Shown: positions 16,663 to 61,440 of the stretch, piece after piece
Numbering within the stretch: the stretch's first letter is position 1
How the letters are laid out: each line of letters begins with the position of its first letter
Source: Symbiodinium sp. CCMP2592
Taxonomy: Eukaryota; Sar; Dinophyceae; Suessiales; Symbiodiniaceae
Assembly (NCBI GenBank): GCA_905221615.1
Contig: CAJNDT010004669.1
Coordinates: 498,910 to 562,909, forward strand
Reading direction: 5' to 3'
DNA length: 64,000 nucleotides
Made by a program: the position numbers and the translations under genes
The notes under the pieces: model-generated
Told to the model about the DNA's origin: nothing
The model's input: the letters and a program-made list of their open reading frames with translations, nothing else
Database searches by the model: none

Positions 16663-16910
16663 TGAAACCATAAACCTCTAAAGGGGTAGCTCTAACAGGT
16701 ACCTACAGCAATGGCTGCATGCTCATACATATACATTCCGCTGCCCATTGGCTCACAGTGGTTTTACCATATTGAGACAAGACAAGCTCTCCTTGCGTAG
16801 CAAGACAAAACAACTACTGTCCGTGTGCAGGGCGCTGCCCTTTGATCCTTAGGGAATAACTGGTCATACACCTCCTCACAAGGAGTATCCCTTGGGGGTG
16901 TATCGGCACA
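16663..16910 (+). repeat. 5' LTR of giant copia element
   Basis: 248 bp, beginning TGAAACCATAAACC and ending TATCGGCACA (TG...CA ends). Identical by eye to 61441-61688. The 3' LTRs are preceded by TAGTGTCTGTT directly after the purine tract, so the true LTR could begin about 8 bp earlier (TGTCTGTT), in which case this 5' copy lost its first bases to the G-run. Confidence 0.85.
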
Positions 16911-16916
16911 GTTTTC

Positions 16917-17012: not shown

Positions 17013-19424
17013 ATGTCGAGCTCGCATAGCGAAGCCGACGGCAGTTCCCAATCCTCCGGGGGATATGAGAACGAAGAGACCTCCCAAGGTCCAGCTACTT
17101 ATGTCGCACAGTCATATGCAACATCTGACCGCATGCTTGCATCATTAGGCATAACGCCCAAGATCGCGCCTGCCTATGATGGCACCACTTCGTGGTTTGA
17201 GTATGAACAGTTGATTGACGACTGGTGCGACATAACAACGCTGGATGACACCAAAAGAGGTCCGTCTCTCAAGACGAGGCTCTCCGGATTGGCCGCAGTA
17301 CAAAAGGAATCACTGAACCGAGAAAGGCTTGCAGCCCCAGATGGAGTAGATTACTTCAAGAAGAAGATGCGTCCATTTTTCGTGAAAGGAGAACAGTACG
17401 TTTTCCTGTGGCGTTTCCTCGGCCTATTCAAGGCATGGAAGGGCAACCAAGACTTTGTGACTTGGATTGCTAAGTTTGAGATCGTGCTACAGCGCGTGAA
17501 AAACTCATGGATGGATCTCTTACCAGAGATAGCTCTGGAAGATGCCCATCCAGATTTCATGCAGGCTGTGCAGGCAGATCAAACCTTCTTGCGCCTACAG
17601 GATGCAACCGAGAGAGACACATACGCCGCACGTTTCTTCGAAACATGGAACAAGGAACGCCTTGATAATCATCGAAGAGCGTTTCCTCTAAATGATAATC
17701 TCCTAGCTCTCCTCTTCCTAGTGCAGTCCGACCTAAATGAGATGCAACGTGAGAGGTTGGTAACAGCATTGACCAACCAAGGTTACCGAATTGAGACCTA
17801 CACGTACCCTGTGGTACGGCAGACCATGTTCGATCAGTTCTCAACGACCAGAACTGGTCTGCAGGATCCCAACATTCGGCACACTTCTCACAAGAAGGAC
17901 CGCCACGGAAGGAGAGATCAACGCCGCAAACGCGGAGGTCGAAACTTCCTCATCCTCGATCAGGGTGAATACGACGGAGTCGATGGATTCTGGCTCCAAG
18001 ACGAAGACACCCTTGAGGAAGGCTTTCTTGCCGCCGAGGATGAAGAAGCTGTCTTCTGGACAGTTGACGACCATGAAGCCTTCGTTGCAAGGAGATTCAA
18101 AAAGGGAAGAAGACCAAGAATGCGTCCCGGATCACCGGGAAGAGCAAAGGGTGGCAAGCGAAAAGGACGTGGCCGTTTTAGGTCATACCGCGGAAAAGGG
18201 AGAGCCAACCAGGCAGAACATGATCCAACTGATTCCAGCTATTTCGGTAAAGGTAAAGGAAAGGAAAAAGGAAAAGGTGGAAAAGGCAAAGGAAAAGGAA
18301 AGGACAAAGGAGATAAAGGAAGCTCCTTCAAGGGTACAAAATCAAAAGGCAAAGGTAAGGATACAGCTAAGTCTGCCTCCTTACAAGGAGACCAAACTGG
18401 ATCTCCACAGGCCTATGAGAGTTCCACCGCACCGAGCTGGGATTCATGGTATGAGGACAGTTATTATACTGACTCCAGTTGGAATTATGCCGCTTATGAC
18501 GATCAAACGTCTTATACATACTATGCATCACAAGCCTCACGAAGAAAGACACGGAAAAAGAAGAGAAGAAATCAAGCAGGATCATCAGGTAGAGGCACAG
18601 ATCCGAGCGCGCACCAAGAACCCGTGTACAACTCATCAGTGAGTTACGTGCCCCAGGTCTTTGAACCATCCGAGGGGCAAGGTGTGGAGACTGCAACAGC
18701 AGTGTTTCCGTTGCAGCACACCGTCCTATCTGCTCTCACAGAGCGGATCAATCTTGATAAGAGCCCTACCTTTGTCATACTTGACTCTGGTTGTACTAGG
18801 GCTATGGGTTCCCGCTATGCGGTGAACAGGCTTATCAAGGCCGTGAAGCAACATGCCCCAGGCATGATTGATTTCACTTTTTCACCTTCGAACACGAAGT
18901 TCTCTTTTGCAGATAGTGAAACAGCTCTTATCAAGGAGCGTGTAACTCTATGGTTTAACACAACTCCAAGAAGAGATACAACCATAGAAGTTTTGGACCA
19001 GGGAAGAGTCCCCATTTTGTTTTCCATTGAACAGATGAGGAATTTAAGAATGACCCTCGAGTGTAGCCCAACAGCTGACCTAGCAACGTGTGAAGCTTTC
19101 GGTTTGTACAAAACCCCTCTTCCGATTAGTACCAATAACCATTTGGTATTGGACCTTCTAGGCTTTACTTCCACCAGGAAGTACCTTCCTAAGTCAGGTA
19201 CGTCGTTCAGTGCGACGGAGACTGCTCTAGGAGCCAATAAGCCTTATGTTAGGATACCGGAAGGTCGCTGTCCAGCCTGTGCCGGACAGAAAAAGGCTCA
19301 CACGTACCTCAAGGGTTGTGACAAAGCACCTGAGGGAGCAGCTGATCCACCACCGAAGAGGATTTCAGGGAAAAAGAAGCCTCTTCCATCTGATCCGGCA
19401 GAATCATCTGCCAAGAAGACTTGA
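17013..19424 (+). CDS. gag: Gag-protease polyprotein of giant copia element
   Basis: 803 aa from the first ATG after the primer site. It would form the particle shell and process the polyprotein. Residues about 50-250 resemble the copia gag helical domain (WFEYEQLIDDWCD, then FLGLFKAWKGNQDFVTWIAKF). A Lys/Gly-rich basic tract (GKGKEKGKGGKGKGKGKDKG) at about residues 412-450 is likely to bind nucleic acid. The aspartic protease motif is LDSGC with the catalytic Asp at about residue 591 (codon 18783-18785). A CCHC-like knuckle (CPACAGQKKAHTYLKGC) spans residues 753-769, C-terminal to the protease rather than in the usual place inside gag. The frame ends at TGA 19422-19424, where pol continues in the +1 frame. 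Confidence 0.88.
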   Translation: MSSSHSEADGSSQSSGGYENEETSQGPATYVAQSYATSDRMLASLGITPKIAPAYDGTTSWFEYEQLIDDWCDITTLDDTKRGPSLKTRLSGLAAVQKESLNRERLAAPDGVDYFKKKMRPFFVKGEQYVFLWRFLGLFKAWKGNQDFVTWIAKFEIVLQRVKNSWMDLLPEIALEDAHPDFMQAVQADQTFLRLQDATERDTYAARFFETWNKERLDNHRRAFPLNDNLLALLFLVQSDLNEMQRERLVTALTNQGYRIETYTYPVVRQTMFDQFSTTRTGLQDPNIRHTSHKKDRHGRRDQRRKRGGRNFLILDQGEYDGVDGFWLQDEDTLEEGFLAAEDEEAVFWTVDDHEAFVARRFKKGRRPRMRPGSPGRAKGGKRKGRGRFRSYRGKGRANQAEHDPTDSSYFGKGKGKEKGKGGKGKGKGKDKGDKGSSFKGTKSKGKGKDTAKSASLQGDQTGSPQAYESSTAPSWDSWYEDSYYTDSSWNYAAYDDQTSYTYYASQASRRKTRKKKRRNQAGSSGRGTDPSAHQEPVYNSSVSYVPQVFEPSEGQGVETATAVFPLQHTVLSALTERINLDKSPTFVILDSGCTRAMGSRYAVNRLIKAVKQHAPGMIDFTFSPSNTKFSFADSETALIKERVTLWFNTTPRRDTTIEVLDQGRVPILFSIEQMRNLRMTLECSPTADLATCEAFGLYKTPLPISTNNHLVLDLLGFTSTRKYLPKSGTSFSATETALGANKPYVRIPEGRCPACAGQKKAHTYLKGCDKAPEGAADPPPKRISGKKKPLPSDPAESSAKKT

Positions 19425-19425
19425 T
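19419..19425 (+). promoter_or_regulatory. Candidate +1 ribosomal frameshift site (ACT-TGA-T)
   Basis: In the gag frame the last codons are AAG AAG ACT TGA. Skipping one base gives CTT GAT CCA, which enters the long pol frame in its repetitive PPEPSG linker. A stop TGA followed by T in the A site resembles the +1 site of ornithine decarboxylase antizyme (TCC-TGA-T). The shift must occur after the zinc knuckle at 19269-19320, because upstream of it only the gag frame encodes recognisable protein. Confidence 0.5.
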
Positions 19426-22400
19426 CCACCAGAACCATCTGGTGATGTTCCTGAGCCTTCCGGACCATCGGAACCATCATCAGGTTCTAGGGACAAACCT
19501 GCAGAATCCTCTGCATCACATGAACCTCCAGAAGAAGAAAGACTTGAGGTTCCACCTGCGAAGATAAAGACTCCAAAGGGTCTTAAAAACCTTCTGAAGA
19601 AATCCCGCAAATATGCGGTTAAATCTCCTGTTGAAGAGAAGTCTAAGGTCCCAGGAGCTGATGACGGGACGGAGGTAAGACCACTTGAGTCAAGAGAATA
19701 CCCGGCTCCTGGTACAGACTCACCTACAGGTGAAGAGATTGTCGCAGAACCATCGCCATCTCTTCCAATTGCTCTCCGCAGGATTCATGAGAAGCTTAAG
19801 GACCCTGTAGAACTCTATAAGCTTCACCTCAAGCACCGTCATATGAGTACGGATCAGTTCAAGCGACGCACAAAGGCCTTACAGATCCCAAAGGAGATAT
19901 ATGAGCTATATGACCAACTGGTCAAAAAGTGCTCAGCCTGCCAGGAACAGGTGAGAGCTCCTTCGAGAGCGAAGATTTCTGGTCTAAGATCAGAGACTTT
20001 CGGTGATCTCACCTTCGTAGATCACGGTGAGCTTCCAATTCCCGGCAAGGATAGTCGCTTAGTATTTCTTATTCTCTATGATGGAGCAACAAACTTGTTG
20101 ACTGCCGAAGTAGTCCAGGATAAAGAAGAACATACTACAATGTCGATTATGAATGACTACTTTGAGAAATTTCAGATCAACCCAAAGGTTGTAGTTGGAG
20201 ATCAAGCATTCATGACTCCAAAAATGGAGGCTTATTACAATCGGCAGAATATCAAGCCTGTGGCAACAGGACCTGGAACACCATGGCCCAACAGGGCCGA
20301 AGCTGCTGTAAGATTGCTGAAGCATCAGATTAAGCTCATACTTCAGATCCTGAAGGATGGTGACCCGCAGTATAACGGAATCACCATGAAGTATGGCAAC
20401 CTCGTTCGCCAAGCATGTTTGGCAAGAAACTCTTCGATTACCTACGGAGGAGTTACTCCTTTAGAAATGGCCTTTGGAAGGCGTCCTCGAGATGTTATAA
20501 CACCAGAGAACGCTGATCCCAATCAGTTGACAGGTAATCCAACTGATACGGAAGTCACTGCGAGAGCCATTAAGGAGCTTGCCAACAGGGCTTACCAAGA
20601 GGCACGCCAATCTGATGATCTGCGTAGAGATCTTGCAGCCAGACTGTCAATGACCCAAGGACCTTTCTCTTTGGGAGATAAGGTTTTCTACTGGTCAGAA
20701 GATAAGTCTAAGATTGGATCCACTGGGTCCAAACATGGATCTTGGCTAAAAGGAAAGGTGATCTCCGAACTCGGAGGATCCATGGTAGGTGTGGATCTTG
20801 GAACACGCATCGTCCGCGTCAATATCTCAAAACTGAGGAAAAATTATGACATAACATCTGATGTGGAGATTCCTCTCGCGCCTGATGAGGAAACTCTGAC
20901 GTCAGAAGGTTCTGACCACGCAAGTTGCATGGTCACCTTCGATGCTTCCCTGCAGTCGACAGACCTAACGATTCCACATCAAGAGTGTCACTGGCAGGTC
21001 ACCAGCACTGGGAAGATTGACTTCCTAGAACTCTACGGCGGATCTCCCCGCATGAGTCACAAAGCTGCCCTGTCAGGTCTGCGAGTAGGTCAGCCAGTCG
21101 ATTTGCGTAGCGGTCTAGATCTTGAGCAACCGCAAGGTCGCTCCAATCTTCTTAGGATCATCAAGGAACAAGAACCTACTATTATTGTTATGTCACCGGA
21201 CCATTCTCAGTGGTCTAGCTGGTACTCACAGTGGAAGAAAGGCTCTGCCAAGAGACTTTCTGTTTTAAAATTCTGTGAATCGGTCGCAGACCACCAAATG
21301 AAGCTCGGACGTTACTTTGTTCTTGAGAACCCATACTACAGCAGGCTCTGGTCTTCACCAGAAGCAAAACGCCTGTTTTCTAATCATAAGATCAGCTATG
21401 AGGTCTGTAACCTACAGGCCTATGGCATGAAAGATCCAACAGGATACTATGAATCGAAATCCTCGATTTTTATGCACAACTTGCCACCGCAAGTTTTAAT
21501 TCCTCTCCAGAGGCATTCTGCCAAAACGAAATCTCCAACATCTCCACCAGGAGACGAAAAGGGTATTCAAGGCTACGGTCTTAAAACGAAACTCGCACAA
21601 GTGTATCCTTATGAATTCTGTGAGACCTTTGCCTCGTGTTTGGCAAGATTCCTGAAACGAGATGCGTATGCATCTCATCTTTCTTTAGTCACAGATATAC
21701 TAGAATACTCTGGAGATGAATGTCTCCAGGGACTTTCGGAACTTCTTGATCAGGAGTATTCTCTTTTGACAACAAATCCTCTCAAGGATTCAAAACTCCT
21801 GCAAGATCCGAAAATCAGATCACTTGTTGCTAGAGTAAATTCCTTATCGAGTAAAACTGAATTACCATTGCATCATTCCAAACCATCACCGTCCCTTGAT
21901 GCCTTGGTGTCAGACATTACTCGCCTTAGATCAAGACTCTTACCAGGGTCTGGTTTCGAACAGTGTACTCTATACAGAGGTACATTTGGAACAGTTAAAG
22001 CACTCACCAGTGTAACTGATGGCGTTCTTGTCTTCTGGAACAAGAAGAAGCCCAATTCGACTATGACGTGTTGCTTGCCGCACCAGGTTTCCTGGAACAA
22101 GGTACACCCATCAACCTTCTCGGGGGTGCTATTCCAGATGACAGGCGGCAAGACTTCACCGTCCGTGCGAACACCGCCGGATGTAATCATGTCGGACGAA
22201 GAGGTTTCGCCGTCAGACCCGTCAGAACCAATGAGCACTAATCGCTCACGGATCACATCTGACGATGTTTCTATGCCGGAACCAGATCAGCCGATGCCTC
22301 CCGGCACGCCGCCGTCGCGTCCTCCTCCTCCCATACCTCCACCGCGACTACCGGCCGTTTCCTCCGATGAGCCCGTGGCTCCTGCTCGGGCTAAGCCTCG

Positions 22401-24882
22401 CGTGCATCCGCCTCCTCGCGTTCCGTCTCCTCGGCGTCTGGGGGGTGATGTGTCGCCAAGGTCTTCATCGGAAAGGAAAGTTTCGCCGCACAAACAGAAA
22501 TCACCTTCACAGGTGCCGACACCAAAACCTAAACCGAAGGCACATCCACAGGGACCCATTCTTCCGTTACAACAAGATGAAGAAGACACTGAAGAAGAAC
22601 TGGTCCCAGACGACCCCGGACAACCGTCCGCTCCTCCTCACACTTCTGGTTCACCAGAACCGGAGAGCGATGCCGAGTCAGAAAACACAAGGTATTACTC
22701 TGATGAGGAAGGTGACTTGGTCGTAGATGAGAAGGACTGGGTCCTTCTCACAGAAGAACAGAAACTGTGCAGTAACACAGGTTCTTTCTCCATGCCTCGG
22801 TACATGCATGGCGGACCCGTAGACATCAGAGAGGTAACATCAAGAGTGAGGTCAGACCGAACACGGTATAAACCCACCAAAAGGTTCCGATCTGACATTC
22901 GTGAAGAGTACGATCTTCTCACGGAAGAGGACAAGGCCTTATCTCTAAGTTCCCCCAGGAACTCAGCGAATTTAACCCAGAAGGCACAGCGGAAGGAGGC
23001 AACCGCCAAGGAAAAGCGTGAGATGAAGAAACAGTTTGATGAAGCGAAAGCAGCAGAATATCAGAGCTGGCTAGACAATGATGTCTTTGAGCTCGTTGAT
23101 ACACGGAAACTCGGAAACATCCGAAATTATGTCACTGGTCGATGGGTCCTGACTCTAAAAAGAGACAAGGACGGAAACTTCCTTAAGTGCAAGGCCCGAT
23201 GGGTCCTGAGAGGTTTCCAGGATCGACAGAAGGACATTCAGCAAACTGATAGTCCTGCTGCGAGTCGCCCAGGTTTCCGCTTAGCGATTCAACTAGCAGC
23301 TAACAAGCTGTGGAATCTGACACACATCGACCTAAAGACTGCTTTCCTGCAGGGTGAAGCCTATGATGAGTCGAGAGACATAATCTGTCAGATTCCTCCT
23401 GAAGCAGGTTATCCTTCCTACATTGCAGCGAGGATGAAGAAACCCGCTTATGGACTTAACGATGCACCTCGAAGATGGTGGAACATCGTTGATAAGGCAC
23501 TCCTGTCTTATGGCCTGGTGCCAACCCGTGCGGATCGCTGTACATATGTTCTGTATGGTAAGAAGTCTGCAACAGCAGATGCTGAGCTCAAGAAGTCTCA
23601 GCCAAAGACCATGGAATCAGCGATTGACTATCTCCTAGATCCCATAGCAGGCAACAATGCCAAGGGTAGACAGGTACATGGAGTAGTCTGTTTGCATGTA
23701 GATGACCTGTGCATGGCCGGTGATGACACCTTTCGTAAGGCCGTGATTGAATCGATCAAAAAGGAATTTGCAGTAGGTTCTGAAGACACGAATGATATCA
23801 TGTTTGTAGGACAGAGATTAGTCTGGAAGGATGCTACAGCATCAGTGCCAGCACATATCTCAGTAAATCAGAACCTAGCTGTTGAAGCTCTAGAAGAAAT
23901 TGTTTTTGACAAGAAGCTCAACAATGAGCAACAATGCACACCACAGCAGCACACTGCTTATAGAAGTGTTTTAGGACAGATCAACTGGCTACAAAGCCGG
24001 ACTCAAGCTCACATCTGTTATCGCTTCAGTCGGTGTGCGAGCAAGGCTGCCAAGCCTACTATCGGTGATATTCGAGAATTGAACAAACTTGTTAGGATTT
24101 TGAAGTCTACCGAAGTAGAATTGCGTTTTTGGCCGCTGAAAGGAAATCTCAGAATCCTCGGTTACCCTGATGCTTCCTACAGGAACAATGATGACAAATC
24201 ATCTCAGAGAGCACATGTTATTTTCCTTGCTGAAGATCGAAATCCAAAGCTAAAGGGAATGAAACAATCAGCAGCAGCTGCTTCTTCCAAGAAGAACGAT
24301 TTCTCTGAATCCTCTATTAAGGAAACATCCTCGAGAGGTAGCCTGGTGGATTATGAGTCTCACAAGATTACGACAACCACAATGTCCACAACAGTGGCAG
24401 AGCTTAACGCACTGATGCGTTGCTTTGGTACCTGCCTGTTCCTCAAGGGACTTTGGGCAGATCTCTCATCAGAGACCGTACCTATACATATCAGAACAGA
24501 TGCGAACAATCTTGTGACAACAGCAGGCACGACACACCTTCCAGAGCAGAAGGAAACTCACCATCTTATACAGATGCTTCGTAAGGAATCCAACTCTGGA
24601 TCTTTAGATGACCTAGCTCATGTAAGCTCGAAGTACTGCCTAGCTGATGCATTAACAAAGCATTCGGCACAACCTGATGAGCTTATCAAGGCTCTGGAAA
24701 CAGGAAACTTACCAGAAACAGACATTCATCCACCCTTCCGTGAACTTCTTCAACATAAAGCTTTCACTGTTCGGTGGATCATAGACAACCTTAGGAATGC
24801 CGCTACAGCGGTAGCCTTCCTTGGAATTGATGTCTCAACAGAGATTTACCGATTATTTTACTGCCAAGGAACATGGTGGTAG
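19420..24882 (+). CDS. pol: Pol of giant copia element: integrase, methyltransferase-like domain, RT, RNase H
   Basis: About 1820 aa, read by +1 shift from gag (the frame is open from at least 19246). Domains in order: an integrase HHCC zinc site (HLKHRH near 19825, CSAC near 19929); an integrase core with Asp 20020, Asp 20200 and Glu 20299 (60 codons, then 33); and a region at 21010-21500 like an AdoMet methyltransferase. That region has FLELYGG at 21022, SPDHSQWSSW at 21193 and LENPYYSRLW at 21322. A Pro/Ser/Glu-rich linker follows (22180-22700), then copia RT (RWVLTLKRDKDG, HIDLKTAFLQG, KPAYGLNDAPRRWW, LHVDDL near 23694) and RNase H (GYPDAS, VAELNAL, IRTDANN, LADALTKH). LHVDDL replaces the common YVDD box. 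The reading frame is uninterrupted and all catalytic acids of integrase, RT and RNase H are present. Confidence 0.88.
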   Translation, partial: LDPPEPSGDVPEPSGPSEPSSGSRDKPAESSASHEPPEEERLEVPPAKIKTPKGLKNLLKKSRKYAVKSPVEEKSKVPGADDGTEVRPLESREYPAPGTDSPTGEEIVAEPSPSLPIALRRIHEKLKDPVELYKLHLKHRHMSTDQFKRRTKALQIPKEIYELYDQLVKKCSACQEQVRAPSRAKISGLRSETFGDLTFVDHGELPIPGKDSRLVFLILYDGATNLLTAEVVQDKEEHTTMSIMNDYFEKFQINPKVVVGDQAFMTPKMEAYYNRQNIKPVATGPGTPWPNRAEAAVRLLKHQIKLILQILKDGDPQYNGITMKYGNLVRQACLARNSSITYGGVTPLEMAFGRRPRDVITPENADPNQLTGNPTDTEVTARAIKELANRAYQEARQSDDLRRDLAARLSMTQGPFSLGDKVFYWSEDKSKIGSTGSKHGSWLKGKVISELGGSMVGVDLGTRIVRVNISKLRKNYDITSDVEIPLAPDEETLTSEGSDHASCMVTFDASLQSTDLTIPHQECHWQVTSTGKIDFLELYGGSPRMSHKAALSGLRVGQPVDLRSGLDLEQPQGRSNLLRIIKEQEPTIIVMSPDHSQWSSWYSQWKKGSAKRLSVLKFCESVADHQMKLGRYFVLENPYYSRLWSSPEAKRLFSNHKISYEVCNLQAYGMKDPTGYYESKSSIFMHNLPPQVLIPLQRHSAKTKSPTSPPGDEKGIQGYGLKTKLAQVYPYEFCETFASCLARFLKRDAYASHLSLVTDILEYSGDECLQGLSELLDQEYSLLTTNPLKDSKLLQDPKIRSLVARVNSLSSKTELPLHHSKPSPSLDALVSDITRLRSRLLPGSGFEQCTLYRGTFGTVKALTSVTDGVLVFWNKKKPNSTMTCCLPHQVSWNKVHPSTFSGVLFQMTGGKTSPSVRTPPDVIMSDEEVSPSDPSEPMSTNRSRITSDDVSMPEPDQPMPPGTPPSRPPPPIPPPRLPAVSSDEPVAPARAKPRVHPPPRVPSPRRLGGDVSPRSSSERKVSPHKQKSPSQVPTPKPKPKAHPQGPILPLQQDEEDTEEELVPDDPGQPSAPPHTSGSPEPESDAESENTRYYSDEEGDLVVDEKDWVLLTEEQKLCSNTGSFSMPRYMHGGPVDIREVTSRVRSDRTRYKPTKRFRSDIREEYDLLTEEDKALSLSSPRNSANLTQKAQRKEATAKEKREMKKQFDEAKAAEYQSWLDNDVFELVDTRKLGNIRNYVTGRWVLTLKRDKDGNFLKCKARWVLRGFQDRQKDIQQTDSPAASRPGFRLAIQLAANKLWNLTHIDLKTAFLQGEAYDESRDIICQIPPEAGYPSYIAARMKKPAYGLNDAPRRWWNIVDKALLSYGLVPTRADRCTYVLYGKKSATADAELKKSQPKTMESAIDYLLDPIAGNNAKGRQVHGVVCLHVDDLCMAGDDTFRKAVIESIKKEFAVGSEDTNDIMFVGQRLVWKDATASVPAHISVNQNLAVEALEEIVFDKKLNNEQQCTPQQHTAYRSVLGQINWLQSRTQAHICYRFSRCASKAAKPTIGDIRELNKLVRILKSTEVELRFWPLKGNLRILGYPDASYRNNDDKSSQRAHVIFLAEDRNPKLKGMKQSAAAASSKKNDFSESSIKETSSRGSLVDYESHKITTTTMSTTVAELNALMRCFGTCLFLKGLWADLSSETVPIHIRTDANNLVTTAGTTHLPEQKETHHLIQMLRKESNSGSLDDLAHVSSKYCLADALTKHSAQPDELIKALETGNLPETDIHPPFRELLQHKAFTVRWIIDNLRNAATAVAFLGIDVSTEIYRLFYCQGTWW

Positions 24883-24940
24883 TCTTGTTTGCTGGTAGCA
24901 CAACCATGTGCTGGATTTTCTATTTAGACTGTTTTTCGTC

Positions 24941-24960: not shown

Positions 24961-25106
24961 CAAGCTGCGTTTTCATCAAGATCGGACATGTTCATGAGAA
25001 CTATATGTTCTGTATCATCCGCAGCCGCTCTCAGCCTCGAGCCTCACAGCAACCAGCCTTTTGAGCTAACCAAGCGTTCCTGATCCTGTTTGGTCATCGT
25101 GCCGTA

Positions 25107-27195
25107 ATGAGCACACGATCAAACTTCCGTAGCCGTGATGGACACGCCCTACCCAGGGCAGTACAGGCGTACCATGAGCGACATCCACACATGGATAGCT
25201 CTTACCCCGAGTCTCGTCGGGAAGCATCACGTCGACACACCGAACACGGTGGACATCGATTTCACAAGCGTGAGAAAAATAACGAGCCTCCATACATTTA
25301 TATTGGTCACCAACAGGTGTTCAATCCGCGTCCAAGAGATCTTGCTGACCTGATCTTACGATGTGGCCATGCGAGTCGAGCAAGGCTCACTCCAATCTCC
25401 AGACATGGAGTCAGGCTCTATGAAGGAGTCCTCCAAGGACCATGGGACAACAGTCCCCTTTTATACTGGGATAACAACGTGGGTAATCACGCTCGTGATC
25501 CACGCCAGTTCTGTACGATGCTTGCACATCACCTTCAGACTGGCCTCCCACAGGAGGTAAAACAATGTGTGAGTCTTGATGCATCAGGAGAATATGACTA
25601 TTCCTCCTCAGTGCCAAGACTGACAGAGGTAACAGGTCTCTCACCAGAGATGTGCTTCCACATTCTTTCCAAGACCAACAGAGTCGGAAGGTGGTTGGCA
25701 CACTCAACAAGACACCTTCAGAATCAGCGCCAAGATCTCTTTGCTGGCCAACACAATTATCTTCTGGACATGTCCAAGTTGGCCGATGCAGAGCTCGCAC
25801 AGTATACACCACAAGAGATCGCGCTTGGTGTCCTCCTTAACACTAAGTCCAGGTTCGTGGTCACCATGGTTTATAACCAAGACGGCAAGGCCGAAACGAC
25901 AGATGCCGCCGTTACCATCCCACAGGATGCAGATGTGTTGACCATGACCAAACTTTTCCTCTCGGCAGTGGGAGGACACGGTTCACGACGAACTCTACCA
26001 AGAGCTGAAGAACCAGATCCTGAAGAAGAGAGGCCAAGGTCACACATGACCATCTCAGACTTCATGGCAACGGGGAGCAATCCTGTGCAGTCCCATGCAC
26101 AGCGTCTCTCCACTAACGCGCCAAGGCCCGTAGGCATGGAAGATTTTGTTCGACAGAACAACCCTTGTTACATCATGCATGCCACGGACTTACAGGCATT
26201 ATCCTCAATCCTGAGGCATGGTCTGGTACCATCAAACCTCCTATCGCAGGTGGTTACCTCACCAGGTCTTCAAGCTCTCGTGAATGAAAACAGTCGTTCC
26301 AACAGGGACACTGTTCAGTTTTCAACGCTAAACCTGGCGAATCCTAATCCGACTTTGCTGCGTGCCAACAAGGCACTGCTTCTAGTATTCGACGCAAATA
26401 ACGTAGTGAACGAAGTCACAAACATGTGGCAGTCGCAAGCAGGGATGTTTGCTACACCAGAGGTAGTGCATGCCCGTACTCTTAGCGCCGTATTTGCACC
26501 CTCTGAAACACTCTGGGTATCATCGCAATACGATGAGCTCAAGAGCATCGGACCATGGTGGGCAGACCACTGCTCCGAACAGATGCCGTCAGCGACTTAC
26601 GAGTCGAAGAAATGGTGCTCAAATTACGGCCAAGAGATCGAATCGACACTTCGCAAGATGTCAAGGCGAAATCTGCCTCCAGAGCCTCCCAAGGCTAGAT
26701 CTTCTCACAAGAAGTCTTTCTCTCTGCCAAATACAGAGGCTGACACAGCTCCAAACCTGGAGCAAACCGCTTCTGCAGGTGAAGTACCTCCGAAAACGGA
26801 GACTACTGCAAAGGAGATCCATCCGAGATCCAAGCTCGCCCGGCAGGCCGAGGCCGACAAGGATCCGGACAGTCTTATGGGACAGCTCTGGAACTCCGAC
26901 GGCACCAGAAGCGCCACTGAAGTTCTTAAGATAACGACAGGTCACAAACCTCCAGAACCTGTCCAGGATACTTCTGCCAACGTAGTTCCTCCCAAGGAAG
27001 AATCTTCTGGAACAGAGACGGAACCTGAGGAACCAGATCCTAACCAGGATTGTGACGAAGAATCAGACGTTGAGTCGGCATCAAGCGAAAAGAGCGAAAA
27101 GAGCTCAAAATCTTCGTCATCCTCAGAACTCCGAGTTGATGTTAATCCGTCTCACAAGACGAACTCTGCACCTGCAGCGTCAGAGGAGAAGAAAG
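25107..27195 (+). CDS. ORF2 N-terminal half: ART / RNA 2'-phosphotransferase-like protein
   Basis: Starts at ATG 25107, 224 bp after the pol stop. Residues about 90-330 are a globular region with TKSRFVVTMVYNQDGKAE, reminiscent of the KptA/Tpt1 winged-helix half. Residues about 345-480 hold CYIMHATDLQALSSILRHGL, RDTVQFSTL and ALLLVFDANNVV, the pattern of the ADP-ribosyltransferase fold in KptA/Tpt1 (HGT...IL..GL, then R..VHF). The catalytic Arg-His pairs are not clearly kept (RDTVQ instead of R-x-x-VH), so activity is doubtful. A charged Ser/Glu-rich linker follows. In this copy an extra G at about 27195 (AAAGGAATC against AAAGAATC in copy 2) breaks the frame, which would otherwise stop at 27230. 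The family assignment rests on motif pattern only. Confidence 0.55.
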
Positions 27196-30100
27196 GAATC
27201 TCCCACGGAAGAGATCACAGAGAAACTTGAGAAGGTCAAACTTGACCAACCAAAGCCTGAAACAGAATATGTTCAGAGTTCAGACGAAGAGCCAAGGAAA
27301 CCAAAATCTCCTAAAAAGGAGAAGGAAAAATTCCTAGTTCTCTTCGATCCTGAAACAGAAACCTATTATCGAGTCAACAGAAGCAAGCTCAACCTCGAAT
27401 ACGAGGAGCCTGCTGATGAGGAAGACCTCGTAAGAGAACATGAGCGCATCAGCGCTCGAATTCGAGAAAATACCAAGCACCGAATCTCGAAGTCACCGTC
27501 TAACCCGGCTATGCAACAGGAAATGCAAGAGAGAATCTGGGTTAGTCGATGGAATCGAAAAATCCGAAGTCCACTCATGATCAAAGATTCTGAGGCTCCT
27601 GACGAAGAGGAGTGGGACAGACCCAGAGAGTCGGCATCTTCCTCCTCTGCACCTCCTAACAAGGAGAGATTTGTAGGAGTACGCAGGACAGCCATGAGCC
27701 TTAACCAAAGGATACGAATGTTGCCTCGACCAGACAATCCTCTCTGCGATCTCTGCAAACAGCCTACAGGCTATTTTTGCTATTCCTGTGGAACGATTGT
27801 ATGTGCAGACTGTCGACTTACCCCACAGGGTAAACAACGGATGTGCGAGTGCGTCTTGCCAATCGATTGCCTTGAGACCTCCAAAGTGAGAGCAGGAATG
27901 ACCTCAGAAGAGCGTCAGTTTTTATACGAGGCCATCCTCACACATGAGGACGTAGATTTGGCAGTCCAGAAAATCAACATGTATTGCGAACACGCAAGAA
28001 GTCTGTTCGAAAAGGACCATCCAGGCGTTGATCCATGCAGCCTTGATGATATTAGGAACAATCCTCCGAATACGTATGACAGCTCCACAGAGGCTCCAAC
28101 TCTGGAGGAATATAAGAGCATTAACAAGAGTCACATCAATATCAAGGACTCTAGAACAAGCCACCCGGCTTCTTTTCTCTCTCTTACTGGCTACGAAGAC
28201 AAACTGGTGCTCGACGCACATTACGAGATAGTTCGCAATAGGATGGCCGGTGTTAACGAGAAGAGAGAATACATTGAAGGCTCAAACCCAGACAGCGTAT
28301 CGCTAAACCTAGTGGTATTCAACTGGGGAAATATGGATCGAGCGCCGGTGCCCGCAGGGAATCCCAAAAAGAAGCTCAAACCTGAGAAGGGATTCGATTA
28401 TCACCCTCTTATTGACATGTGCTTCAACAATTCAGCTCATATTACCCTCGTACTCGAGGCAGGAGCACTTGCGTCAGAGTATTCGATCGCAACCATGCGA
28501 CAACATGAATACAGGGGGATGCTAATCCATTCTCCTCCCAAGGAGCCTGAGGCACCCTCGATGTATATTGGAGTCAAGGGTGACCCAACAACAGACATCG
28601 CTCTCGTCCACCACTTTTACCGTCATCGAACAATGAAGCCTAAGAATGGTGGTCCCAAGAAGCGACTGTGGGCATGCCACGGTGCGGTATGCCGCCTCAC
28701 CTTTGGGTACCACAGTACCATACCAGAGGCAAAAGAATGGGTCCACCCATATTCTGGCCAAAGGATGACGAGAGACGAGTTCATGCAGATTATCGGATAT
28801 GACCCACTTAAGGGCAAAAATCCTGACAAGGATGGACCCACTGATGGCTCTTACCTCTCACCAGAGGCGTGCCTGACATTGTCAAACCTCGACCCCTCGC
28901 CGATTCTCTGTGAATGGAACGGCCATGTCGAGGGTGATGAGCCACCAGAGGAAGACTTTGAGTCATACGCAGAGATCTTCTCACAAGAAGCATCGAACGA
29001 TCTTGACGAGATGTGGTGTACAAAAGGGCCTTACAAGGTCATCACCATCGCGATCGTCCATTTCAACTCGTTCATGACTCATAAGGAAGAACAGAGACGC
29101 GAACTGGTGAACGCGTTCCTCAACGAGGTTCTCCCTTTTAAACCGGATGTAATAGCGGGAGATCTCAATAATATTGCGTCGAGGATCACCTTAAAAGGTG
29201 GAGACGTTCACCCGCGAAACAGTTTGTTTTCTCTATACTTGGAGAAGAAACTTGCAGCATTCAACAAAATAGCAGGAAGGCACTCACAAGTGCGACATCT
29301 TTGCTTGAACAACTCCGACCAGCACAGACTGGCACGTACAGATCGTCTACCGGCGGACCCGGCGAAGAAAGTTGCTGACCTTGACTGTATCAACAGTTAT
29401 ATCCTTGACTGGAGTAAAACGCCGCACACGGCGTCACCTAGTCCAAGAGAAGTCACACCTGCCGCCGAAAGAACATACTGGGAACGAATCTCAGATATGT
29501 GGCAGGACACGAACAACAACAGGGATATTGATATCCGTCTGTTTGTCTCAGTCAAGCAGTACTATTCAACTTTTTCTAACCTTGACCTATGGTTGAGTCC
29601 CTCTGACAAGGATTGGCACAGCCCTTTGGGCTTCACGATACAACCAATCCTTACAAAAGGGAAACACAACCGGTCAGATGCCCAGGTCCAAAAGATCGCT
29701 GACAAGCGAAAAGCTTACAAGCAGCGTAATGCTGAATACTGGGGTTACAACGATTCATTCGTTTACTCATCCGGCAACAGCTGGTACGACAAATCGCAAC
29801 CATCATGTAGCCATCACAGATATGGAAGATTCTGGGAGTGGCCACAGCCTGAACGTCCCAGCGAGCCTGAAGGTCCTCCTCCAAGAAGGAACCAGGAATC
29901 ATCGTCCTCTTCACAACAAGATCTACCAAGATCAAGGTCCAGGCCTCAAAGAACCAATATTGTTGACAAGCTCAACATGTCTTTGGAAGAGCTGGATGGA
30001 CTAGAAGAAGAACCGTCACCAACAAAAAGTGACATCGAAGAACACGAGAGAGAAACATCAAACCTGATGTCCGCTCAGAGAGATGAAGAGGAACAAGAGG

Positions 30101-30291
30101 ACGAATCCTCAAGCCGGAGGAGAAGAAGGAAGGCATCGCGTCCACCGTCTGCTCCGAGCGGCAAGGCACTCAGAACAGCTGCTACAGCAGCGGGGTTGTC
30201 GGGCTGGTTCGGACACCGCAACCGAGGTGGAGCGAACGCAGAGTCTATCAAGACTGATGAAACTTCACTTCCAAACTCACTAACCAGTTAG
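27196..30291 (+). CDS. ORF2 C-terminal half: zinc-ribbon plus EEP (DNase I/APE-like) endonuclease
   Basis: Continues ORF2 after the frameshift. A Cys-rich zinc module lies at 27742-27858 (LCDLCKQ, FCYSCG, CADCR, MCEC). The region 28300-29640 reads as an endonuclease/exonuclease/phosphatase fold. Its landmarks are VVFNWGN (Asn codon 28321), ITLVLEAG (Glu codon 28456), VITIAIVHFN near 29040, VIAGDLNN (Asp 29161, Asn 29167) and SDKDWHSPLGF (Asp 29605, His 29617). These are the metal-binding and catalytic positions of DNase I, APE1 and LINE endonucleases, and all are present. The C-terminal tail is Arg/Ser/Glu-rich with an SRRRRRK basic run. It ends at TAG 30289; copy 2 has GAG there and reads on through a hydrophobic segment. 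Such a domain is not a normal part of copia elements. Confidence 0.7.
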   Translation, partial: ESPTEEITEKLEKVKLDQPKPETEYVQSSDEEPRKPKSPKKEKEKFLVLFDPETETYYRVNRSKLNLEYEEPADEEDLVREHERISARIRENTKHRISKSPSNPAMQQEMQERIWVSRWNRKIRSPLMIKDSEAPDEEEWDRPRESASSSSAPPNKERFVGVRRTAMSLNQRIRMLPRPDNPLCDLCKQPTGYFCYSCGTIVCADCRLTPQGKQRMCECVLPIDCLETSKVRAGMTSEERQFLYEAILTHEDVDLAVQKINMYCEHARSLFEKDHPGVDPCSLDDIRNNPPNTYDSSTEAPTLEEYKSINKSHINIKDSRTSHPASFLSLTGYEDKLVLDAHYEIVRNRMAGVNEKREYIEGSNPDSVSLNLVVFNWGNMDRAPVPAGNPKKKLKPEKGFDYHPLIDMCFNNSAHITLVLEAGALASEYSIATMRQHEYRGMLIHSPPKEPEAPSMYIGVKGDPTTDIALVHHFYRHRTMKPKNGGPKKRLWACHGAVCRLTFGYHSTIPEAKEWVHPYSGQRMTRDEFMQIIGYDPLKGKNPDKDGPTDGSYLSPEACLTLSNLDPSPILCEWNGHVEGDEPPEEDFESYAEIFSQEASNDLDEMWCTKGPYKVITIAIVHFNSFMTHKEEQRRELVNAFLNEVLPFKPDVIAGDLNNIASRITLKGGDVHPRNSLFSLYLEKKLAAFNKIAGRHSQVRHLCLNNSDQHRLARTDRLPADPAKKVADLDCINSYILDWSKTPHTASPSPREVTPAAERTYWERISDMWQDTNNNRDIDIRLFVSVKQYYSTFSNLDLWLSPSDKDWHSPLGFTIQPILTKGKHNRSDAQVQKIADKRKAYKQRNAEYWGYNDSFVYSSGNSWYDKSQPSCSHHRYGRFWEWPQPERPSEPEGPPPRRNQESSSSSQQDLPRSRSRPQRTNIVDKLNMSLEELDGLEEEPSPTKSDIEEHERETSNLMSAQRDEEEQEDESSSRRRRRKASRPPSAPSGKALRTAATAAGLSGWFGHRNRGGANAESIKTDETSLPNSLTS

Positions 30292-30620: not shown

Positions 30621-32030
30621 GTGCTGTGCAAAAACTGCCTCCATGCAGTACAAGTTGCGGAGATTCGCAGGAACGATCCTTTCCAAAGAGGTGATACACG
30701 ACCACGTGGAACCGAAAGAGACATTGAGCGCTTCCAGACCTACGATGATGCAAGTAACACTCCTCACATGACACAATTATTCAAGGATGCCTTGCATGCA
30801 CAAATGGCCGAAGAAGCCATGCAGATTACCTACACATCGATCCCCAAGGGATCCTCGGCAAAGGCCAGAGGTACATCTGCACTCTCAAGTGCCGCATCGT
30901 CATCAGCGCCCAAGGCAATACCACCAGGGCCTAACAAGGCGAACATATCACCTCCACCTAAGAGTCCTCCGCCAAAGGCGAAAGGAACAGTACCTTCTGA
31001 TCCTCCAAGACCAAAAGGTCCTACCAGAAGAGGAGGTCAAAATCGGCGCATTCAACGAAAGGCAGCTAGAGAAGCCCACAACAGTGGACTCTGCACCTAT
31101 GCAGACGCTGCAATTGACGAAGCCAATCAAGGCCAGGCAATTAACGTTACGTGCCGAAACATAGTAGCAAGACACGTCAGCTCTATCGATGCAACGGTAG
31201 AAGCAGCCGGCCATTTTACACAACGCGTGCTACAGCACGTAGAAACATATGATGAAGAGGAACCGTGGAGCACGGAGTTTCTACCAGTCGTGGAAGTCCT
31301 ATTCAGGAACTTAAGCGGCGACGAAACAACTGTCATACATGACAATCAAACGGTAACTATGCCTCTTGCGAAATACACAGACCTCCTCAGAATCGCACAG
31401 GCATTGCGAGGCTCTATCCAAAGAGACAGGGAGGAAAGAAAGGAACATCTTGACACCATCCAAGATACTCTATCCAGAGTGGAAATCCTTCTAACAGCAC
31501 TGAAGGACTCAAGGACAGTCTTTAACCAATTGGTCCATTCCTCACTAGAGATAGAGCGAAGAAATAACAATCTCAAAAATGTCCTCGAAACACTCTTTGA
31601 CGACCAAAGCTCTGAGGAAGACCAATCAGAATCTGACAATGAAGAAGTCCTAACTCCTTCTGCACCACAGTACTGGAATAGCCTCTATGCCCACGCCTTA
31701 TCTCCTTCAGGAGATGAAAGTGAAAGATCATGGGCGTCCTCAGACGGACAGCTTGAAAGAAGAAGGGCTGAACGGGCAAAGGCTAAGCAGCCGCAAACGG
31801 CAAAAGCCAAGGCAACTCCAGCCAGCTCACAAGCTGCTCCAAAGGCCGAGCCAAAGGCGATAACATCCAACCATGGATATGATACTGCAGACGCCGCCTT
31901 CACCAGGGCTGAGAACAGATTACTCGGAATCTTTTCAAGTTCCGAAGAAGATCACTCAGACCCGGATGAGCCACATCCGAACGTCTATGCTCGAGCCTAT
32001 GATCCAAACCTGGATCCAAATCTGAGATAA
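30621..32030 (+). CDS. ORF3 of giant copia element, coiled-coil protein of unknown function
   Basis: Up to 469 aa. The nominal start is not an ATG, and the real start or upstream fusion is uncertain because small indels differ between the copies at 30550-30605. It begins with a short Cys/His stretch (LCKNCLHAVQVAEIRR), then a Pro/Lys-rich linker and a basic patch (RRGGQNRRIQRKAARE). A region predicted to be helical follows (SIQRDREERKEHLDTIQ, EIERRNNNLKNVLETLF). The end is acidic and Ala/Lys-rich. I recognise no family. It could be a nucleic-acid-binding accessory or structural protein. Copy 2 carries the same ORF with frameshifts. Confidence 0.6.
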   Translation: MLCKNCLHAVQVAEIRRNDPFQRGDTRPRGTERDIERFQTYDDASNTPHMTQLFKDALHAQMAEEAMQITYTSIPKGSSAKARGTSALSSAASSSAPKAIPPGPNKANISPPPKSPPPKAKGTVPSDPPRPKGPTRRGGQNRRIQRKAAREAHNSGLCTYADAAIDEANQGQAINVTCRNIVARHVSSIDATVEAAGHFTQRVLQHVETYDEEEPWSTEFLPVVEVLFRNLSGDETTVIHDNQTVTMPLAKYTDLLRIAQALRGSIQRDREERKEHLDTIQDTLSRVEILLTALKDSRTVFNQLVHSSLEIERRNNNLKNVLETLFDDQSSEEDQSESDNEEVLTPSAPQYWNSLYAHALSPSGDESERSWASSDGQLERRRAERAKAKQPQTAKAKATPASSQAAPKAEPKAITSNHGYDTADAAFTRAENRLLGIFSSSEEDHSDPDEPHPNVYARAYDPNLDPNLR

Positions 32031-32337: not shown

Positions 32338-32605
32338 TGAAACATAAACCTCTTCCCCGCCTACCCTCTAAAGGGGAGCTCTAACAGGTACCTACAGCAC
32401 ATGGCTGCATCGCTTCATTACATATACATTCCGCTGCCCATTGGCTTCACAGTGGTTTTACCATATTGAGACAAGACCAACTCTCCTCGTAGCAAGACAA
32501 AACAAAACATTGTCCCGGGTGCAGGCGCCTTGCCCTTGACCTTTAGGGAATAACTGGCATTACACCTCCTTACAAGGAGTAATTCCCTGGGGGTGGATCG
32601 GCACA
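32338..32605 (+). repeat. Inner LTR (3' LTR of copy 1), diverged
   Basis: 268 bp. It aligns to the 248-bp outer LTRs but has many small indels and substitutions (for example an insertion CCCCGCCTACC near 32355, and CCCGGGTGCAGGCGCC in place of CCGTGTGCAGGGCGC). The pattern of many homopolymer-like indels next to a long G-tract could be true age or uncorrected read error. Confidence 0.85.
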
Positions 32606-32770
32606 GGGGGGGGGAGGGGGGTGGGACGGGGGGGAGGGGGGGAGGGGGGCGGGGAGGGGGGTCGGGGGGGGCGGGGGGGAGGGGGGGAGGGGGGGAGGAG
32701 GGGGAGGGGGGGGGGAGGGGGGGGGCGAGGGGGGGGAGGGGGGGGAGGGGGGGGGAGGGGGGGGGGGCAG
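32606..32770. repeat. G-rich low-complexity tract
   Basis: About 165 bp of G-runs broken by A, C or T. It generates Gly-rich and Pro-rich shadow frames. It lies exactly at the end of the inner LTR and marks a possible mis-join. Confidence 0.85.
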
Positions 32771-51306: not shown

Positions 51307-53750
51307 TGGGGGGTGATGTGTAGCCAAGGTCTTCATCGGAAAGGAAAGTTTCGCCGCACAAACAGAAATCACCTTCACAGGTGCCGACACCAAAACCTAA
51401 ACCGAAGGCACATCCACAGGGACCCATTCTTCCGTTACAACAAGATGAAGAAGACACTGAAGAAGAACTGGTCCCAGACGACCCCGGACAACCGTCCGAT
51501 CCTCCTCACACTTCTGGTTCACCAGAACCGGAGAGCGATGCCGAGTCAGAAAACACAAGGTATTACTCTGATGAGGAAGGTGACTTGGTCGTAGATGAGA
51601 AGGACTGGGTCCTTCTCACAGAAGAACAGAAACTGTGCAGTACCACAGGTTCTTTCTCCATGCCTCGGTACATGCATGGCGGACCCGTAGACATCAGAGA
51701 GGTAACATCAAGAGTGAGGTCAGACCGAACACGGTATAAACCCACCAAAAGGTTCCGATCTGACATTCGTGAAGAGTACGATCTTCTCAAGGAAGAGGAC
51801 AAGGCCTTATCCCTAAGTTCCCCCAGGAACTCAGCGAATCTAACCCAGAAGGCACAACGGAAGGAGGCAACCGCCAAGGAAAAGCGTGAGATGAAGAAAC
51901 AGTTTGATGAAGCGAAGGCAGCAGAATATCAGAGTTGGCTAGACAATGATGTCTTTGAGCTCGTCGATACACGGAAACTCGGAAACATCCGAAATTATGT
52001 CACTGGTCGATGGGTCCTGACTCTAAAAAGAGACAAGGACGGAAACTTCCTTAAGTGCAAGGCCCGATGGGTCCTGAGAGGTTTCCAGGATCGACAGAAG
52101 GACATTCAGCAAACTGATAGTCCTGCTGCGAGTCGCCAAGGTTTCCGCTTAGCGATTCAACTAGCAGCTAACAAGCTGTGGAATCTGACACACATCGACT
52201 TAAAGACTGCTTTCCTACAGGGTGAAGCCTACGATGAGTCGAGAGACATAATCTGTCAGATTCCTCCTGAAGCAGGTTATCCTTCCTACATTGCAGCGAG
52301 GATGAAGAAACCCGCTTATAGACTTAACGATGCACCTCGAAGATGGTGGAACATCGTTGATAAGGCACTCCTGTCTTATGGCCTGGTGCCAACCCGTGCG
52401 GATCGCTGTACATATGTTCTGTATGGTAAGAAGTCTGCAACAGCAGATGCTGAGCTCAAGAAGTCTCAGCAAAAGACCATGGAATCAGCGATTGACTATC
52501 TCCTAGATCCCATAGCAGGCAACAATGCCAAGGGTAGACAGGTACATGGAGTAGTCTGTTTGCATGTAGATGACCTGTGCATGGCCGGTGATGACACCTT
52601 TCGTAAGGCCGTGATTGAATCGATCAAAAAGGAATTTGCAGTAGGCTCTGAAGACACGAATGATATCATGTTTGTAGGACAGAGATTAGTCTGGAAGGAT
52701 GCTACAGCATCAGTGCCAGCACATATCTCAGTAAATCAGAACCTAGCTGTTGAAGATCTAGAAGAAATTGTTTTTGATAAGAAGCTCAACAATGAGCAAC
52801 AATGCACACCACAGCAGCACACTGCTTATAGAAGTGTTTTAGGACAGATCAACTGGCTACAAAGCCGGACTCAAGCTCACATCTGTTATCGCTTCAGTCG
52901 GTGTGCGAGCAAGGCTGCCAAGCCTACTATCGGTGATATCCGAGAATTGAACAAACTTGTTAGGATTTTGAAGTATACCGAAGTAGAATTGCGTTTTTGG
53001 CCGCTGAAAGGAAATCTCAGAATCCTCGGTTACCCTGATGCTTCCTACAGGAACAATGATGACAAATCATCTCAGAGAGCACATGTTATTTTCCTTGCTG
53101 AAGATCGAAATCCAAAGCTAAAGGGAATGAAACAATCAGCAGCAGCTGCTTCTTCCAAGAATAACGATTTCTCTGAATCCTCTATTAAGGAAACATCCTC
53201 GAGAGGTAGCCTGGTGGATTATGAGTCTCACAAGATTACGACAACCACAATGTCCACAACAGTGGCAGAGCTTAACGCACTGAGGCGTTGCTTTGGTACT
53301 TGCCTGTTCCTCAAGGGACTCTGGGCAGATCTCTCATCAGAGACCGTACCCATACATATCAGAACAGATGCGAACAATCTTGTGACAACAGCAGGCACGA
53401 CACACCTTCCAGAGCAGAAGGAAACTCACCATCTTATACAGATGCTTCGTAAGGAATCCAACTCTGGATCATTAGATGACCTAGCTCATGTAAGCTCGAA
53501 GTACTGCCTAGCTGATGCATTAACAAAGCATTCGGCACAACCTGATGAGCTTATCAAGGCTCTCGAAACAGGAAAATTACCAGAAACAGACATTCATCCA
53601 CCCTTCCGTGAACTTCTTCAACATAAAGCTTTCACTGTTCGGTGGATCATAGACAACCTTAGGAATGCCGCTACAGCGGTAGCCTTCCTTGGAATTGATG
53701 TCTCAACAGAGATTTACCGATTATTTTACTGCCAAGGAACATGGTGGTAG
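51307..53750 (+). pseudogene. pol: Pol fragment of copy 2: RT and RNase H
   Basis: Same frame and product as 22440-24882. TAG at 51321-51323 replaces the TCG Ser codon of copy 1. RT contains KPAYRLNDAPRRWW, where copy 1 and copia RTs in general have Gly in place of Arg, a probably damaging change. LHVDDL and the RNase H acids remain. Ends with the same GTWW sequence. Confidence 0.85.
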
Positions 53751-53808
53751 TCTTGTTTGCTGGTAGCACAACCATGTTCTGGATTTTCTATTTAGACTGT
53801 TTTTCGTC

Positions 53809-53828
53809 TAAAAGAAAATTTGTGTCTG
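53809..53828 (+). other. Internal polypurine-like motif of copy 2
   Basis: TAAAAGAAAATTTGTGTCTG, identical to 24941-24960. Its conservation shows it was present in the common ancestor of both copies. Confidence 0.65.
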
Positions 53829-53974
53829 CAGGCTGCGTTTTCATCAAGATCGGACATGTTCATGAGAACTATATGTTCTGTATCATCCGCAGCCGCTTTC
53901 AGCATCGAGCTTCACAGCAATCAGCTTTTTGAGCTAACCAAGCATTCCTGATCCTGTTTGGTCATCGTGCCGTA

Positions 53975-56671: not shown

Positions 56672-56703
<32 letters not shown>

Positions 56704-56764
56704 TTTTTCCCTTTTTTTCTTTTTTTCTCCTTTTTTTTGTCTCTTTTTTTTTTTTTCCTTTTTT

Positions 56765-56842
<78 letters not shown>

Positions 56843-59800: not shown

Positions 59801-59883
59801 AGGTGATACACGACCACGTGGCACCGAAAGAGACATTGAGCGCTTCCAGACCTACGATGATGCAAGTAACACTCCTCATATGA
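53975..59883 (+). pseudogene. ORF2 of copy 2: ART-like region, zinc-ribbon, EEP nuclease (interrupted)
   Basis: From ATG 53975 the frame runs unbroken across the site where copy 1 has its extra G, so ORF2 is originally one protein of about 1730 aa. The zinc-ribbon is destroyed by the poly-T tract, after which the frame changes (second open frame 56629-59883). The EEP landmarks (VVFNWGN, LVLEAG, VIAGDLNN, DKDWHSPLG) are intact. GAG replaces the TAG of copy 1 at about 59409, and the frame continues through a hydrophobic segment (FSIAWNVFLLLMGLHWMW) to 59883, overlapping ORF3. Confidence 0.7.
56654..56905. repeat. Poly-T tract inside ORF2 of copy 2
   Basis: About 250 bp of T with scattered C and G replaces about 6-10 bp of copy 1 (TGCTATT at 27778). 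It adds a poly-Phe stretch. No target duplication is visible. It could be an antisense poly(A) insertion or, more likely, a sequencing or gap-filling artefact. Confidence 0.85.
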
Positions 59884-61135: not shown

Positions 61136-61418
61136 GATAAGAAAAATTCTCAGAGTTTCACAACAGTGATCACAAGGCTCTAACAAGAGCACAATGAAGG
61201 GCTGCATAATTCGGTAGAAGAACATTACCAGACCTGATCCTGTACAGATGATCTCTCTGACCAACATGCATGAGTGTGTGCAAAAGGAGTGACCTCAACA
61301 GTGTACTTCAGTGCTATACATAGCATAAACAATATGCTGTTTTTATCATGAGTCCAAACTCCGCAACTGTGACAGTGGGCATAACAGTATATGTGTGAAT
61401 GTGCGGCCATGCTTCCGG

Positions 61419-61438
61419 TAAAAGAAAATTAGTGTCTG
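61419..61438 (+). other. 3' polypurine tract of copy 2
   Basis: TAAAAGAAAATTAGTGTCTG, the same as 32316-32335. The purine part ends at TAG and TGTCTGTT follows, which could be the true LTR start. Confidence 0.65.
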
Positions 61439-61440
61439 TT

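Follow-up and report, generated by a model that had tools for sequence, protein, structure and literature searches.

Among retroelements, nucleases of the EEP (endonuclease/exonuclease/phosphatase) superfamily belong, as a rule of thumb, to long interspersed nuclear elements (LINEs), which have neither long terminal repeats (LTRs) nor an integrase. Can a Ty1/copia LTR retrotransposon also carry one? The question is raised by a 64,000-nucleotide window of the dinoflagellate Symbiodinium sp. CCMP2592 (contig CAJNDT010004669.1, positions 498,910 to 562,909), which holds two copies of one element, copy A (16663-32606) and copy B (51307..61689, +). An open reading frame (ORF) downstream of pol in copy A, reported at 27196..30291 (+) and termed ORF4, had been predicted from the letters alone to be an extra ORF encoding a captured EEP (DNase I/APE-like) endonuclease. 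The present analysis shows that the element is a Ty1/copia LTR retrotransposon and that ORF4 belongs to a real, old and conserved accessory protein common to diverged elements of the lineage. This extra copia protein probably holds a second, divergent DNA- or RNA-cutting domain of EEP type. On balance, sequence comparison favors reading the domain as a strongly diverged EEP hydrolase within the accessory polyprotein of a Symbiodiniaceae-type copia lineage. EEP ancestry, taken by itself, appears likely; that the domain is an active enzyme is graded lower than this ancestry.

The element has one accessory polyprotein after pol, which is interrupted in both window copies. ORF4 is its middle part and is continuous with its neighbors in many copies, the first part lying at 25107..27230 (+) and the last at 30621..32030 (+). 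A search of the genome (1,098,105,373 bases) with the domain as query yielded 971 first-look candidates; the best 88 were scored, a sample biased towards intact copies. All 88 show 99-100% identity across the full query and no internal stop, and the family has many young copies in this genome. The domain lies within an open frame of at least 2000 codons in 49 of the 88, and in 25 of them the frame is exactly 2321 codons long. This length fits 25107-27230, 27196-30291 and 30621-32030 combined, which argues for one accessory polyprotein per element. In copy B, the frames cross the ORF3/ORF4 limits and run beyond the stop at 30291. The extra ORF thus stands as a conserved additional protein of the copia lineage, but not as a gene of its own, being the middle of a much larger polyprotein.

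Related elements and selection place this protein beyond chance. A pattern for the reverse transcriptase (RT) motif, omitting one codon of the family, found 57 places in the genome. RT pieces at the 30 loci examined are mostly 85-98% identical, with lower values in L049, L059 and L065 (71-79%) among others. Seventeen stretches were fetched at 14 of the 57 places, and eight of these places gave an ORF4 match (L074, L075, L076, L078, L083, L084, L086 and L087). No ORF4 match was obtained at the other six (stretches L071-L073, L077, L080-L082, L085 and L088), which may be truncated, more distant, as with the 48% identical pol of L081, or have the frame outside the fetched stretch. L083, degenerate and on the opposite strand to its RT motif, was left out of the alignments; the seven aligned relatives are 74-79% identical over the covered part. 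Public protein searches with alignments added five homologues, P0001-P0005, which share 58-77% identity with the query across 24-93% of its length. P0003 and P0005 come from Symbiodinium microadriaticum and P0004 from Symbiodinium sp. KB8. P0003, called RE2, holds both RVT_2 and the EEP-like domain in one plainly patched gene model, so pol and the domain are linked in Symbiodinium too. A third protein search (query P0002, E<=1) gave no further homologue, pattern searches for further relatives found none, and scans of viral and prokaryote contigs returned no relative.

The comparison of copies called for by the original prediction revealed purifying selection. Comparing copy A with copy B gives a pN/pS of 0.26 (p=0.0004) for ORF4 from 27778 on, 0.32 (p=0.03) for the EEP-like domain and 0.16 for the first part of the accessory frame. 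At greater distance, the window and L075 differ over 466 codons of the domain with a dN of 0.177 and saturated synonymous sites, and L075 against L076 gives a dN/dS of 0.106. The possibility that the ORF was captured only once, raised as a refutation, fails, since related elements and the Symbiodinium homologues show the domain to be a stable part of the lineage.

The EEP-like domain, as delimited by relatives and conservation, spans 490 residues (28252..29721, +). Residues are numbered in the frame ending at 30291, which starts at 27052 in the ORF listing and has 1079 codons. Within it, all four motif strings were found where they had been placed: VVFNWGN at residue 421 (base 28312), LVLEAG at 466 (base 28447), VIAGDLNN at 700 (base 29149) and SDKDWHSPLGF at 851 (base 29602). 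Candidate catalytic residues are N424, E469, H670, D704, N706, D845, D854 and H856. The motifs had been described as kept in both copies, which holds for the first three (the DNA of VIAGDLNN is present at 29149 and 58270), while the fourth reads TDKDWHSPLGF in copy B, with T for the first S. Likewise, the strings are present as claimed, but their spacing departs from expectation, with a gap from Glu to the next motif far longer than in the compared EEP proteins. All eight candidate residues are unchanged in the 30 copies fetched from the 88 scored, the window's own included. In the 12-row alignment, among rows covering each site, Asn is conserved in 9/9, Glu in 10/10, His in 11/11, the Asp of GD in 9/10, the Asn of GDxN in 9/10 and D...DWH in 7/7. 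These counts leave out gapped rows, P0004 for Asn and Glu, and P0003 and P0004 for the last motif, as these gene models skip the stretch.

Profile-profile comparison with hhalign provides the link to EEP proteins. The query profile combined the window domain with 11 relatives (12 sequences), and the EEP comparators were chosen by annotation, PF03372 or tblastn similarity, not by motif. An ExoIII-like set of six (three loci of this genome, XthA and two phage proteins) scored 38.9 (E 1.4e-4), against 23.4 for the best of 100 column shuffles. A YbhP-like set of six (YbhP, YafD and four plasmid-borne proteins) scored 28.8 against 25.3, and the union of 12 scored 28.8 against 24.5; no shuffle out of 100 reached the real score in any of the three comparisons. 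As a positive control, the ExoIII-like and YbhP-like sets align with each other at 79.0. Each time, the best alignment sets VITIAIVHFNS...VIAGDLNN on the EEP block of strand, Tyr/His, helix, strand and GDxN. D704 and N706 fall on the Asp and Asn of GDxN in all three set alignments, and H670 coincides with the YbhP His in both YbhP-led ones. Ten single EEP proteins score 16.7-31.1; nine meet the domain within columns 254-364, xthA being the exception, and in seven D704 meets the Asp of GDxN (not in xthA, phiD12 and L099). These results support a conserved central block, VHFNS...VIAGDLNN (29020..29238, +), that aligns with EEP proteins with GDxN in register and is the sole part of the domain with profile-profile EEP support. 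For the Asn, Glu and final Asp/His parts of the EEP assignment, the motifs alone are what suggests it. Of the predicted capture of an EEP enzyme, the alignment of the block, GDxN on GDxN, therefore stands, and the cutting activity is what we infer.

Three further lines were set aside. A profile of EEP proteins retrieved with VIAGD[FL]N scored 30.4 (best of 60 shuffles, 22.9), but this set is motif-biased and masking the motif removes the signal. A mixed EEP set (36.6 against 21.6) contains the same motif-biased records. A regular expression of the motifs matched in full none of 20,000 shuffles and also none of 10 positive controls (E. coli XthA and nine motif-found records, including L034, perhaps not an EEP protein), and was dropped because no positive control matches in full.

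Several findings weigh against an EEP assignment. Pfam searches at E<=10 with the window domain and 12 relatives, and with the central block alone, gave no EEP family, and NCBIfam and PHROGs at E<=1 gave no EEP match. Used as queries against PDB sequences, the domain and its alignment retrieved nothing EEP-related, nor did the central block or the last motif. As far as family libraries and PDB sequence searches go, this is the outcome that the original prediction had named as a refutation (no EEP match by profile or structure). Elsewhere in this genome PF03372 lists 150 places (150 of 4162 candidates scored), and none of them coincides by eye with places of the domain family found with the domain or the RT pattern; the strongest one listed, the ExoIII-like L089 (G000:C5051:1110514-1111242, 110 bits), served as a comparator. 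The structure prediction proposed earlier was run, but AlphaFold2 gave no usable model (mean pLDDT 30.4 with a single sequence and 33.6 with 12 sequences), so the fold is neither backed nor refuted. The profile comparison has its own weak points. An earlier four-protein EEP profile scored 24.9, with 1 of 60 shuffles higher, and ExoIII-led alignments put the catalytic Tyr on A667, with H670 three residues past it. Fourteen unrelated E. coli proteins score 10.4-25.5, overlapping the EEP range, and the alignments of six, at lower scores, likewise lie within or extend into the central block. Taken by themselves, the N- and C-terminal parts show no profile-profile signal, leaving nothing outside about 70 residues. 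At the level of motifs, the stretch between Glu and His is very long, the Asp of GDxN is lost in L087 and its Asn in L074, and the last motif is Asp-Trp-His (DWH), not the usual Asp-His (DH), which is the canonical EEP form and occurs as SDH in XthA and L089.

Taken together, the silent family libraries and structure prediction, the short shared block, the long Glu-His stretch and the non-standard DWH could also describe a protein that is not EEP at all. It would be an unrelated conserved accessory protein, env-like or structural in a ribonucleoprotein, in which GDxN and the upstream His arose by convergence or chance. This explanation is unlikely, though it deserves serious weight. It must account for a central block whose alignments with two EEP sets, and with the two combined, outscore every column shuffle, with GDxN in register, and for other motif residues conserved in relatives down to 58% identity. 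The extreme drift from Pfam EEP families and the altered last motif may instead point to a domain derived from EEP but no longer catalytic, kept for nucleic-acid binding or assembly; such a structural role would account for purifying selection too. The candidate Asn, Glu, His and Asp-x-Asn, however, are kept in most relatives covering them, and a degenerate domain of this kind seems improbable.

The other parts of the polyprotein bear on what the domain may do. In the first part of the accessory frame, a weak Tpt1/KptA-like stretch (~25803-26456, +) matches PF01885 with E=0.0033, its 17.9 bits falling below the curated cut-off of 26, and has no PDB match at E<=10. A B-box-like zinc finger (27733..27816, +) lies upstream of the EEP-like domain (PF00643, E=4.1e-5, 24.1 bits, equal to the cut-off). 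In copy B, about 241 additional bases, mostly T, occur within the zinc-finger codons (56654-56894), either a true insertion or an assembly artefact. On the 3' side of the EEP-like domain, hydropathy marks a hydrophobic segment, FSVFSIAWNVFLLLMGLHW, read in copy B (59419..59475, +), whose best 19-residue mean is 1.56; the corresponding values are 1.32 in P0001, 1.61 in P0003 and 1.42 in L075. The last part (30621..32030) has no domain recognized by Pfam and other family libraries, and the polyprotein bears an Arg/Ser-rich, basic tail. A PADLOC search with four proteins gave no match, hence no sign of a known defence family.

Within this setting, the EEP-like domain would most likely serve as an accessory nuclease or phosphodiesterase. 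As a metal-dependent phosphodiesterase, it could cut or trim nucleic acid in the element's cycle, its substrate most likely being RNA ends or RNA intermediates. An RNA-end role is suggested because the polyprotein is shared with a zinc finger and the weak Tpt1-like (RNA 2'-phosphate) domain, and RNA work would be the simplest role for a second phosphodiesterase because the element already has an integrase region for DNA. Against this, the RNA-end role leans on a neighbor whose Pfam score is below the cut-off. A more ambitious version, that a Tpt1-like 2'-phosphate transferase, a zinc finger and an EEP phosphodiesterase together form an RNA-processing module that prepares or repairs RNA ends, is a long shot. 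The ends handled would be those of the tRNA primer, the element's own RNA or defence-damaged host RNA, and the domain would be the first EEP native to an LTR retrotransposon. It is similarly doubtful that the domain acts as a DNA endonuclease of EEP type, nicking the target and assisting in the choice or opening of insertion sites, which would add a LINE-like step to integration by the integrase. Target nicking by EEP nucleases is established in LINEs, and EEP domains are abundant in this genome, where a VIAGD[FL]N search found 10 places, several in long ORFs that look LINE-like. Copy A is flanked on either side by G runs with some A, as is copy B at its 3' end, which leaves room for some target preference; yet this preference would rest on three ends only, and an element that retains an integrase region and TG...CA LTRs has no need of an extra nick. 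Certain members of the EEP superfamily have lipids or inositol phosphates as substrates. By analogy with LINEs and bdelloid LTR elements, which have GDSL esterase ORFs, the fold might act on another such phosphoester (a lipid such as sphingomyelin, or an inositol phosphate) and aid the particle at membranes. The conserved hydrophobic segment after the domain, with a mean hydropathy of 1.3-1.6, would fit this, but it is borderline as a membrane helix, and a zinc finger with a basic Arg/Ser-rich tail is commoner in nucleic-acid binding; action at membranes is very unlikely. The preferred reading remains that of a diverged EEP phosphodiesterase acting on nucleic acid, probably RNA.

The assignment of the host element to copia, as originally made, is confirmed by the LTR match, the integrase region ahead of the reverse transcriptase and RVT_2 (E=3.6e-17). 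Copy A contains a gag-like ORF and pol, with a long region separating pol from the 3' LTR. Its 5' LTR (16663..16911, +; TG...CA) is 100% identical over 249 bases to 61441-61689 in the 3' LTR of copy B, and its 3' LTR lies at 32338..32606 (+) by LTR comparison. The gag-like ORF downstream of the 5' LTR (17013..19424, +; 803 codons) is called gag by position and has no match in a Pfam search. The pol frame (19246..24882, +) shows the Ty1/copia order, with rve at residues 257-346 (E=0.024) and an IS481 transposase model at residues 239-349 (E=4.9e-4), both below cut-off, followed by RVT_2 at residues 1278-1437, above cut-off. RVT_2, the LTRs and the integrase region rule out a LINE (non-LTR) identity. 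Copy B is 98.2% and 96.7% identical to copy A in two blocks, and its 5' part is missing, an assembly gap of Ns lying immediately upstream of 51307.

Some features of these copies are recorded as observations. The LTRs of copy A differ from each other (16675-16911 against 32365-32606, 88% identity with 12 gap openings), yet its 5' LTR equals the 3' LTR of copy B over 249 bases, which may reflect sequencing error or inter-copy recombination. The G runs, broken by A, lie directly outside copy A on each side (16640-16662 and 32607-32680) and next to the 3' end of copy B (61690-61720), suggesting that the element prefers tracts of this kind or that assembly is difficult at these sites. Just 3' of the 5' LTR of copy A, TGGTAGCGGAGCCCGG (16918-16933) resembles a primer-binding site that would pair with a tRNA 3' end. 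In pol, the stretch separating integrase from reverse transcriptase contains FLELYGG...SPDHSQWS...FVLENPYYS (21040-21789), which resembles a degenerate C5-cytosine methyltransferase; searches with this stretch gave no Pfam match and no related PDB match. A different, second copia element lies in the window at 42855-46976 (RVT_2 E=1.2e-8), and its frame continues into a long, Glu/Lys-rich C-terminal extension.

Enzymes acquired beside gag and pol reveal what limits such elements in a given host. If the EEP reading is true, a copia element breaks the rule of thumb tying EEP nucleases to LINEs, and dinoflagellate elements offer a sizeable, conserved accessory protein for experiments. Should the domain prove not to be EEP, an abundant copia family still carries an accessory frame of about 2,300 codons that is under selection. 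Full-text searches of open-licence papers turned up neither an account of an EEP domain in an LTR element nor a description of such a frame in an abundant copia family, and a literature search for Tpt1 with a retrotransposon gave nothing relevant. Gag and pol are considered enough for LTR-retrotransposon transposition (PMC7264820), additional ORFs are a known kind (PMC7264820, PMC5408684), and accessory domains of LTR elements include a chromodomain and a DnaQ-like exonuclease (PMC6338049).

Compared with ExoIII/APE (XthA) and YbhP-type EEP proteins, the domain shares the central block of strand, His/Tyr, helix, strand and GD-x-N, with GDxN in register with both types and the His with the YbhP kind only. 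Unlike them, it measures about 490 residues rather than about 250, has long insertions and no family-profile match, reads DWH in place of DH, and has its His three residues off the ExoIII Tyr. With the EEP endonucleases of LINEs it shares a VIAGD[FL]N-type domain in a retroelement, but in the present case the domain lies after pol in a copia element, and PF03372 misses it. The Symbiodinium retrotransposons with DNA methyltransferase (DNMT) domains are likewise dinoflagellate retroelements that have acquired an enzyme domain. According to the retrieved portions of PMC5890265, these are LINE and DIRS elements, a figure legend lists Exo_endo_phos among the domains, and the abundant copia elements lack the DNMT domain, with no extra copia domain mentioned there; the element described here is copia. 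The Juno and Vesta LTR elements of bdelloids also have an enzyme-like extra ORF beside gag and pol that is common to lineages. Their ORF3 enzymes are, according to PMC5408684, a DEDDy exonuclease, for which a role in RNA 3'-end processing was proposed, and a GDSL esterase/lipase, and ORF3 shows no significant departure from neutrality within genomes. The Symbiodinium element differs in host group and enzyme superfamily, belongs to copia rather than to a deep-branching clade, and carries an accessory protein with evident purifying selection.

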